From positions 1-51,687 of IMG/VR virus record IMGVR_UViG_3300042806_000379: a stretch of 51,687 nucleotides of DNA; one strand, written 5' to 3'. Positions 5,515 through 42,459 of the stretch are shown here, in pieces; position 1 is the stretch's first letter; each line of letters begins with the position of its first letter. A program made the position numbers and the translations under genes. The notes under the pieces are model-generated. The model searched no databases, had not been told where the DNA came from, and worked only from the letters and a program-made list of their open reading frames with translations. Origin of the DNA: a virus.

Positions 5515-5729
5515 GCTTGCTCAACAAGGCAGCAGTTAAACGCAGTGCCCTTGACCTGGCGTCAGCCAAGTTCAAGGAGCGCAACAAGACTAGGTTGGAG
5601 ATGGGCATCGCCCCGCTGAAGGCTGCGCCTTCACGGGTCAGCGGCGAGTTCATCGACAACTTCGAAGCCAAGGTGATTGGCTTACTCAACAGTATGGTCA
5701 GCGACCATAAGACGGGAGCAACACTATGA
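5511..5729 (+). CDS. hypothetical protein (72 aa)
   Basis: I chose ATG 5511 because it overlaps the upstream stop as ATGA, the rule in this operon; TTG 5505 is an alternative. The 72-residue protein (MSLLNKAAVKRSALDLAS...) is helical and basic, with no recognised motif. It ends in an ATGA overlap with the next gene at 5726. Confidence 0.6.
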   Translation: MSLLNKAAVKRSALDLASAKFKERNKTRLEMGIAPLKAAPSRVSGEFIDNFEAKVIGLLNSMVSDHKTGATL

Positions 5730-37159: not shown

Positions 37160-37579
37160 TCAACCTTTGGACCGTAATACTTCCCAGTTATCTCGCCAGG
37201 CTGAGTTAGCAGCGAAATAGATAGATTTTGTCTTGGGTAGCTTTGCCCGCGGGATTACAAACACGGCATCCTGCGGAATGTGGTAGAAAATAAAGATATC
37301 GCAGTCGGTTTTGTTGTAGATTGTCTTTACTTTATTGGTTTTAAGAAGAGCTCCGTATCCGTACCCAGGACCTTTTACAGCCAGGAATTTAAGCTTGTTT
37401 CGAGTCTTGGTGTCCGAGGCGCCTGCCGTGGTCTTAACCTGGACTCTTTTAAGTTTGCCTCTCCAGTCAGTTATCAAATCGTACCCCTCGTCAATTACAG
37501 GTGTGCAAACCAAAAACCCCTGCTCCAAGAGCTTTGCGGCCACTCTTTGAACGCCAATAGCCCCTATGCGAAGGCTCAT
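37160..37579 (-). CDS. PD-(D/E)XK nuclease-like protein
   Basis: I chose ATG 37579 because it overlaps the endolysin stop as ATGA; TTG 37585 is two codons earlier. The 139-residue protein begins with a helix (IGAIGVQRVAAKLLEQGF), then VIDEGYDLITDW and LKRVQVKTTA. This is the Asp and Gln-x-Lys strand pattern of the PDDEXK_5 group, which includes the intron homing enzyme I-Ssp6803I. The helix lacks the usual Glu after G-x2-, so activity is uncertain. A single Cys and an IFIFYHIP strand follow. It may be a resolvase, a homing enzyme or a derived inactive form. Confidence 0.6.
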   Translation of the reverse strand: MSLRIGAIGVQRVAAKLLEQGFLVCTPVIDEGYDLITDWRGKLKRVQVKTTAGASDTKTRNKLKFLAVKGPGYGYGALLKTNKVKTIYNKTDCDIFIFYHIPQDAVFVIPRAKLPKTKSIYFAANSAWRDNWEVLRSKG

Positions 37580-38103
37580 AGCCAAGACCTCCCCAGGACA
37601 TTGGTTGCCAGCCTACGACGTCTATAAACCCCGTCTCCGTCACGGGAACCGCCCCCATTGGTGTTGCCTTCAATCGTTAAAAGCCATTCCCCGTCATTTT
37701 TCTCTACAAGCCCGGTATGTGCTACCCGACCCATGCTATTGAACCAAATACCAAAAACGTCGGCTGGCTGGAGAGGTGTGCCTTTTCTGGATCTATCCCA
37801 AATAGGACGGTACAGCATTGTAGGCGACCAGGCTGTCCGGGGGTACGGGTTAAGAGCGCGAGTAAAGGTCTTGTCCCCTACCCAAACAACGAAAGCCGCG
37901 CACCAAGGCGCTCGAGTACCTTTTAAGCCTACGGAGTCTAGGATCTCGTCCACCACGGGCCCGTCGTTTCGGCCTGTGGCTTCCTTTGTCCCGATGGCTT
38001 TTTTTGCGGTCTCGACGACGCGATGCCTCGCATCCGTATCACCCAAAGAAATATTGGAGTGGGCAAGAGCAAGAGTAATCGCAAAAACATACTTTATCGG
38101 CAT
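37576..38103 (-). CDS. secreted CHAP-type endolysin
   Basis: The 175-residue protein has a hydrophobic N-terminal segment (about 5-20, YVFAITLALAHSNISLG) that should act as a signal peptide or signal anchor. Next comes a CHAP/NlpC-type amidase domain. The catalytic Cys68 lies in RAPWCAAFVVWVG, His129 in VAHTGLVEK, and Glu145/Asn147 in IEGNTN. The enzyme would cut peptide bonds in peptidoglycan at lysis. The signal means export may not need a holin hole. It lies between a membrane protein gene and the PD-(D/E)XK gene, with short overlaps on both sides. Its partners are the holin-like and spanin-like genes upstream. Confidence 0.8.
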   Translation of the reverse strand: MPIKYVFAITLALAHSNISLGDTDARHRVVETAKKAIGTKEATGRNDGPVVDEILDSVGLKGTRAPWCAAFVVWVGDKTFTRALNPYPRTAWSPTMLYRPIWDRSRKGTPLQPADVFGIWFNSMGRVAHTGLVEKNDGEWLLTIEGNTNGGGSRDGDGVYRRRRLATNVLGRSWL

Positions 38104-41431: not shown

Positions 41432-41558
41432 AGTAGTATTCTCCTTTCAGAGAAAAAAAGTAAGAGTTTAAAAACAAGAGGAGAAACCAACACGGTTTCC
41501 CGTAGTTTTCAAAATTGGATCTCCCGGCGGCATCCCGAGACTTTTATTGCCCGTGTGA

Positions 41559-41611
41559 CCTCTTCCATTTTTATAGGTCGTGCCCTCAAAACCCGCTTCC
41601 GTTTTTATAGG
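41559..41611 (-). repeat. two 19-bp direct repeats in the capsid leader
   Basis: On the late strand CCTATAAAAACGGAAGCGG (41611-41593) recurs as CCTATAAAAATGGAAGAGG (41577-41559), 17 of 19 identical, start-to-start spacing 34. The second copy is flanked by GACCT/AGGTC, which can pair. They lie in the leader of the capsid gene or the 3' part of the intron. They may bind a regulator or be paired promoter-like elements (TATAAAAA). Confidence 0.6.
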
Positions 41612-41629
41612 ATCTCTAAGGCAGATCAG

Positions 41630-41658
41630 AGTATGCGCTACTGACTACGGTCTGTCAA
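41630..41658 (-). promoter_or_regulatory. candidate sigma-70 type promoter for the capsid gene
   Basis: TTGACA (41658-41653) and CATACT (41635-41630) are separated by 17 bases on the late strand. It has the TATTGACA context seen at four other late-strand junctions, and here the predicted start leaves a leader of about 190 bases before the capsid ATG. It lies downstream of the intron core, so messages begun here would lack the intron core. Confidence 0.45.
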
Positions 41659-41700
41659 TACCTGAATTATGCTTTGACCCGCGCCCAGAGGAGACGCGCA

Positions 41701-41908
41701 TTTATACCGACCTGTTACCAGGTGGATTGGACTATATCTTGATGTCGTTAGACACCCTGCTTGTTCGTGCTGGTTATTAAGGCGTCCTAAGCCTCCAGTA
41801 GTCTCTACACCTTACATGCAAGCGTGCATGTCTTGGCTCGGTATTGTCTTGGGAATCTCCCAAGAGTTTCACCGAATTAAAGCAGTACGGGCCGATAATC
41901 TGTTAAAG
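41701..41908 (-). ncRNA. group I intron core (late strand, no ORF)
   Basis: All four conserved group I elements occur in order on the late strand: P AATTCGGTGAAAC (41878-41866), Q AATACCGAGCCAAG (41845-41832), R GGTGTAGAGACTA (41811-41799), S AAGATATAGTCC (41740-41729). They pair as expected. P3 is CTGCTT (41885-41880) with AAGCAG (41762-41757), P4 uses CGGT with ACCG, P5 is TCTTGGG/CCCAAGA. P6a is a 7-bp hairpin ACATGCA/TGCATGT, P7 is GACTA/TAGTC, and P8 is GGTGTC/GACATC. P9 is ACCTG-GTAA-CAGGT with a GNRA loop. An extra stem of P7.1/7.2 type suggests subgroup IA. The best P1 pairs TAGTT (41913-41909) with GATTA (41900-41896), putting the 5' splice site two bases after the fibre gene's stop. 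The 3' splice site is unresolved; G41493, near the capsid start, is one option. Confidence 0.85.
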
Positions 41909-41910
41909 AA

Positions 41911-42459
41911 CTAACTAAAAATAGCATACCTACAGCAAACACCAGCGGAGGATGTAAGATACGAAAAGCTTCTTTGTCTATCGTACCGCCATTGTTGCCC
42001 TAGATCGTACTCAGGATAGAAATCAAAACCTCTAGGAGATACCGAAACATATTTGTCCCAGGATACCCATACCTTGATAAGCTTGTTGGTCGGTAAGCCA
42101 CCCGAATGATAAGTGTTAAGGAATGAATAGAGATTTGGGGACACGGACTGCCAAAACGAATACCTAGGATTACTTGAGTCGGCGTACGTTGGAGTGCCGT
42201 AAAGGAACGTTTCATTCCAGTTGCGTTGGTTCAGGCTTGAGTAATACCGATACGTTGGCGTACCGCTTGAAGGCTTTACAAACTCAAATCCAGTAGCCCC
42301 GCAATTCCATCTGCGAGCTGCATATAAATTTGGGTTATAAAATGTTCCAAGCCTATTAGCAGAGAACTTCCTGTTCCCCGTCATCCCGCTCTTTTTTGTG
42401 TTGTTGACCTCGTAAATCGTCGGAGCTTTACGGATCTTTAATGGGAGGACAGTGGGCAT
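41911..42459 (-). CDS. fibre- or decoration-like protein (182 aa)
   Basis: The 182-residue protein (MPTVLPLKIRKAPTIYEVNNTKKSGMTGNRKFSANRLGTFYNP...) is rich in Tyr, Ser, Asn, Trp and Arg with few acidic residues. This suggests a beta-rich surface protein. No motif or family is evident. It is the last of five genes between scaffold and capsid. Its TAG stop (41913-41911) lies immediately before the predicted 5' end of the group I intron, so splicing would leave the protein unchanged. If P1 used the alternative GGTAT site (41930-41926) the final four codons would be replaced. Confidence 0.55.
   Translation of the reverse strand: MPTVLPLKIRKAPTIYEVNNTKKSGMTGNRKFSANRLGTFYNPNLYAARRWNCGATGFEFVKPSSGTPTYRYYSSLNQRNWNETFLYGTPTYADSSNPRYSFWQSVSPNLYSFLNTYHSGGLPTNKLIKVWVSWDKYVSVSPRGFDFYPEYDLGQQWRYDRQRSFSYLTSSAGVCCRYAIFS

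Follow-up and report, generated by a model that had tools for sequence, protein, structure and literature searches.

A probable ORF-less group IA-like intron in the last codons of a fibre-like gene upstream of a phage capsid promoter

Results

The stretch of viral DNA analysed here, referred to as the window, comprises all 51,687 bases of IMG/VR record IMGVR_UViG_3300042806_000379. On its minus strand, a small fibre-like ORF (41913-42459) is followed by a group I intron, a sigma70-type promoter (TTGACA-17-CATACT, 41630-41658), a structured leader (41432-41623) and a 503-aa gene. Mainly on the basis of gene order, the latter is the probable major capsid gene. Its AlphaFold model has low confidence (pLDDT 50), and fold searches returned only weak capsid-like matches. 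Translated up to the UAG at 41913-41911, the fibre-like ORF gives 182 aa. It has no Pfam or PHROG match, and its AlphaFold model is also of low confidence (pLDDT 47). Homologs in three related loci (L004, L007 and L048) are 67-79% identical to it and share an invariant C-terminal GVCCRYAIF. Decay of the intron's host gene, one possibility raised in the first-pass annotation, is not seen: the fibre gene has stayed intact and is conserved.

A search with the Rfam group I intron model (RF00028) gave a significant match on the minus strand at positions 41953-41708 (66.9 bits, E 6.9e-15, model positions 1-253 of 253; gathering cutoff 50 bits), and this was the sole Rfam family match in the whole contig. 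The core is readable with its P, Q, R and S elements and with P3, P4, P5, P6/P6a, P7, P7.1/P7.2, P8 and P9. This agrees with the first-pass annotation, which had described a full group I core on the late strand and no endonuclease frame. No coding frame was found inside the 214-nt element, and there is no endonuclease ORF.

We aligned the window with its homologs in L004, L007 and L048. In a 67-pair model of these four sequences 99.3% of the cells are paired, a value that falls to 28-42% in a control with slid partners. Eleven pairs are changed on both sides, found in P6a, P8, P9 and a stem in the 3' exon, and P3-P5 and P7 are nearly invariant. The P3 strands, CUGCUU (41880-41885) and AAGCAG (41762-41757), are paired in 100% of the cells. 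The same model contains the P4-P5 domain (41838-41875), consisting of UCGGU/ACCGA and CUUGGG/CCCAAG. In P6 and P6a (41808-41837) six pairs are changed on both sides, the entire P6a stem having been swapped by compensatory changes in L004 and L048. Both RF00028 and the four-homolog model place P7 between GACUA of the R element (41799-41803) and UAGUC (41734-41730) of the S element AAGAUAUAGUCC. The P7.1/P7.2 extension (41770-41798), between P7 and the 3' strand of P3, keeps CUGG/CCAG and AGGC/GCCU in all four homologs. Compensatory changes are also seen in the P8 hairpin (41742-41755; UA to CG in L007) and in the P9 hairpin (41706-41729; a UA/CG pair), whose base is an AUC/GGU pairing. Since the core has kept its pairing through compensatory changes while the surrounding gene has diverged to 59-75% nucleotide identity, the fold is under selection. 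Judged from its sequence, the element is a genuine ORF-less group I intron that shows all the group I features accessible to sequence comparison apart from an unambiguous P1, and its P7.1/P7.2 feature marks it as group IA-like.

IMG/VR contains 41 loci related to the downstream 503-aa gene. The same intron lies upstream of this gene in L001/L016, where intron and fibre gene are identical to those of the window, and in L004, L007 and L048/L051; it is absent from the tested intronless relatives. The fibre gene is present in all records that carry the intron and in none of the intronless relatives searched. The intron therefore moves or is inherited with the fibre-gene cassette, whose end is marked by the capsid promoter. 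An intronless fibre-gene allele was found neither in IMG/VR, by protein, profile and VCCRYAIF pattern searches, nor in GTDB genomes or phage GenBank records; pattern matches in L069-L071 looked like chance. A free-standing PD-(D/E)XK protein (PF11645, PDDEXK_5; 37163-37585, minus strand) was rejected as a homing partner because it is present in intronless relatives too, irrespective of the intron.

Immediately upstream of the capsid promoter (45109-41668 in the window, and the corresponding stretch in relatives), phages that otherwise resemble each other closely carry unrelated genes. The interval separating the scaffold-like gene from the capsid gene is a swapping hotspot for fibre-like genes.

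The 3' splice site could be placed by homology. Two further introns, which interrupt the DNA polymerase genes of L052 and L060, have the same S element and P9 region as the window, and both terminate in GGUAnAAAUG. In L052, joining ...ACAUCCU to UAAAAUGG restores the protein sequence ...ARRTSLKWCEY..., and in tblastn the joined protein aligns to phage polymerases as single pieces over the join. Since this motif ends the homologous polymerase introns and the window has GGUAUAAAUG followed by CGCG, the 3' splice site probably lies after G41699, which would be the omega G and the final intron base. Identity to relatives is 0.89-0.93 up to G41699, then 0.75-0.78 in the 3' exon. Taking the RF00028 match, the covariation, the L052/L060 junctions and this drop in identity together, the best coordinates of the intron are most likely about 41912-41699 on the minus strand, or 214 nt, about half the length first described. 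No convincing P10 pairing with the 3' exon was found in any register. A stem-loop directly 3' of the splice site (41697-41680, minus strand), which opens the 3' exon, covaries in all four carriers, though it is probably exon.

An intron spanning 41493-41913, as first proposed, would include sequence of another kind, since its 41664-41493 part consists of promoter and leader. The 3' end suggested at G41493, with a P10 formed through UGUUGG, falls inside the capsid leader, in sequence that intronless phages carry unchanged, and so was rejected as the intron end. A block starting near GGTATTGACA is common to the close relatives irrespective of the intron and contains the promoter and the approximately 200-nt leader up to the capsid start; in L048 the start of the block is present and the leader has diverged. 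The promoter is thus kept in intronless relatives. It also lies downstream of the intron, so the idea that the intron regulates capsid expression is unsupported.

The leader itself (41623-41432, minus strand), seen in A5 and L002-L021, contains two hairpins sharing an almost identical 15-nt loop, UAUAAAAAYGGAAGY, as well as a terminator-like hairpin ahead of the ribosome site and what may be a pseudoknot. Across 15 relatives, 98.3% of the cells are paired and eight pairs, mostly in the first hairpin, are changed on both sides; the putative pseudoknot stems are invariant. The leader matched no Rfam family, and it may represent a new RNA element, for example an attenuator or an antiterminator.

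The 5' splice site is the least certain boundary. The best P1 was originally noted at the stop codon region of the fibre gene, and this fits a pairing of UAGUU (41913-41917) with a putative internal guide sequence GAUUA (41900-41896) in the window, L004 and L048. It comprises five pairs, none of them G-C, with a U.G wobble at the splice site. We infer from it a 5' splice site after U41913, the last exon base, which would split the 182-aa ORF's apparent stop codon between U and AG. Group I introns often have an in-frame stop following the 5' exon, a feature thought to assist folding (PMC3984707). The fit is weak and not unique. The repeat UAGUUAGUU in the window, L004 and L048 allows two P1 registers, with cleavage after U41913 or U41909, and other short pairings can also be drawn. 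Only the second register, 4 nt downstream, is fully paired in L007.

Joining U41913 to C41698 would give ...AIFS-SRLLWARVKA and a stop in the window, the 3' exon (41667-41698; (U)CG CGU CUC CUC UGG GCG CGG GUC AAA GCA UAA) supplying SRLLWARVKA. The same join reads ...AIFS-SSLIWAWVKA in L004 and ...AIFS-SILIWDRVKA in L048, each again followed by a stop. In L007 the frame is kept (VLVRERVNA, then a stop) through compensating 4-nt and 1-nt shifts, yet an in-frame UAG stays in the exon; the 1-nt deletion is in the 3' exon, and the shifted region is at about 5515-5545. The stop after splicing is TAA or TAG in all four carriers and always lies 8 nt before the TTGACA of the -35 box, and the unspliced stop lies about 250 nt before this box. 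Intronless relatives with a long ORF at this place have gaps between stop and -35 box of 7, 7, 10, 11, 11 and 22 nt, figures that leave out L008-L010, whose ORFs end further upstream.

The intron therefore most likely interrupts the last codons of the small fibre-like gene. The original description of an intergenic element that does not clearly split a gene is probably wrong, given a 5' site in the stop codon and, beyond the 3' site, a frame that continues to a suitably positioned stop. If the 3' site is at G41699, splicing in the window, L004 and L048 would not leave both flanking proteins intact, as had been supposed. It would remove 214 nt, delete the UAG and add ten residues, yielding 192 aa instead of 182.

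Discussion

We propose, with moderate confidence in the explanation as a whole, that the fibre-like gene is split at its 3' end by an ORF-less, self-splicing intron of group IA-like type, 214 nt long (41912-41699, minus strand). Sequence comparison establishes the core and its conservation, the shared promoter and leader, and the linkage to the gene; splicing, its exact sites and the longer protein are inferred. Ribosomes on the precursor would halt at the stop codon on the exon-intron border, leaving the ribozyme free to fold. P1 (UAGUU/GAUUA, with its U.G pair) would present the 5' splice site, guanosine would attack after U41913, and the freed exon would then attack after G41699, joining the exons. 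The joined mRNA would read ...AIFS-SRLLWARVKA-stop and encode the 192-aa protein in place of the 182-aa one. Having no homing gene, the intron would be inherited inside a fibre-gene cassette that is swapped among related phages at a position immediately 5' of the capsid promoter. Speaking against this explanation are the weak, five-pair P1, the competing short pairings, the lack of a convincing P10 and of any intronless allele among the sequences searched, and the fully paired P1 of L007 4 nt downstream, which leaves an in-frame UAG in the exon. In addition, the stem in the 3' exon covaries like RNA, so it may belong to the intron.

One alternative is that the intron splices from a 5' site after U41909, at the second UAGUU. 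The UAG would then stay in the exon, and the element would be an intron of the 3' UTR without effect on the 182-aa protein. UAGUU, cut at its 3' end and followed by CUUU(AA/UU)CA-GAUUA, is the only five-pair P1 close to P3 to remain unbroken across the four homologs, including L007, and GVCCRYAIF plus a stop would make a clean protein end. However, this arrangement leaves a long untranslated stretch between stop and promoter, in contrast to intronless relatives, and reduces the in-frame continuation and the matched 1-nt and 4-nt shifts of L007 to coincidence. We consider it unlikely, though it is the alternative to be taken most seriously.

A 5' splice site further upstream, around GGUGUU (41943-41938), is less probable again. 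VCCRYAIF would in that case be the translated start of the intron. Conservation at the level of the intron begins abruptly at GGUGUUUG, the Rfam alignment prefers to place P1 near GGUGUU, GUGUU can pair with GGUAU or GAUAU in all four homologs, and VCCRYAIF was never found without the intron. However, the P1 helices available there are weak and consist mostly of G-U pairs, the reading frame produced by the join continues into the promoter, and the VCCRYAIF block is modelled, with low confidence, as a terminal strand. An upstream site is further disfavoured by the VCCRYAIF codons of the intron carriers, which vary only synonymously (four of four substitutions, P=0.0046); the end of the 5' exon is coding.

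The UAGUUAGUU tandem could also offer both sites at once. Cleavage at either of two 5' positions separated by 4 nt, one keeping the stop and the other removing it, would make a ribozyme-controlled switch between 182-aa and 192-aa fibre proteins. This suggestion is speculative and we give it little weight. If true, a tandem-site intron would switch forms of a virion host-contact protein.

At the other end, the intron might continue through the stem-loop at 41697-41680 as a P9.1-like domain and end just before GGUAUUGACA. The stem covaries in all four homologs and occurs only in intron carriers. Against this, both polymerase introns end at the same GGUAnAAAUG motif, conservation falls at G41699, and the dinucleotide preceding the alternative G is not preserved as a P9.0 pairing partner, making this extension improbable. 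Least probable of all is a relic that no longer splices and is kept by linkage to the fibre gene: the weak P1, missing P10, absent homing gene and P1 register conflict in L007 would suit it, but the core has retained 99.3% pairing with compensatory changes in a gene at 59-75% nucleotide identity.

An ORF-less group IA-like phage intron is of a known kind; its host gene is unusual. Like phage group I introns of subgroup IA (RF00028), the window intron has the full core with P, Q, R and S elements, P3-P9 and P7.1/P7.2, an omega G and an in-frame stop at the border. A 2025 survey found phage introns mainly in genes of nucleotide and DNA metabolism (PMC11878797). Unlike most described phage introns, the one in the window probably lies within the final codons of a fibre-like gene that is small and variable. 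We found no published report of this case in a search whose coverage excluded most subscription journals. The polymerase introns of L052 and L060 share with the window the motif running from the S element to the 3' end (AAGAUAUAGUCCAAUCC...GGUAnAAAUG), but they carry endonuclease frames, GIY-YIG-like by sequence appearance, and interrupt a conserved enzyme; L052 also differs in its strong P1 and P10. IStrons and homing introns have a group I ribozyme, as does the window, whereas the window element lacks both an IS605-type transposase and, within its 214 nt, a homing endonuclease ORF.

If our preferred reading with splicing after U41913 and G41699 holds, the annotation of the fibre-like gene would be corrected in this phage group, its C-terminus probably lying behind the intron, and an apparent intergenic ribozyme would be removed. 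It would add an ORF-less intron in a rapidly swapped gene outside DNA metabolism, one inherited with its gene and not by homing. The analysis also separates a conserved, structured capsid leader RNA from the intron with which it had been merged, and this leader may deserve more attention than the intron.

Flavobacterium phage immuto (MW353175, L062) has an unannotated group I-like core at 1935-2215. Like the window intron it is ORF-less, and it lies downstream of a small gene beside a tail fibre gene, is about 75% identical to the window intron over 82 nt and has the 3' motif AUAAAUG. It differs in being followed by a terminator and not a promoter, in scoring below the Rfam cutoff and in its host gene. 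Intron-core-like DNA, also unannotated, is present in Alteromonas phage AD45-P1 (L063, 2001-2093), in a gap of about 370 bases between two hypothetical genes.
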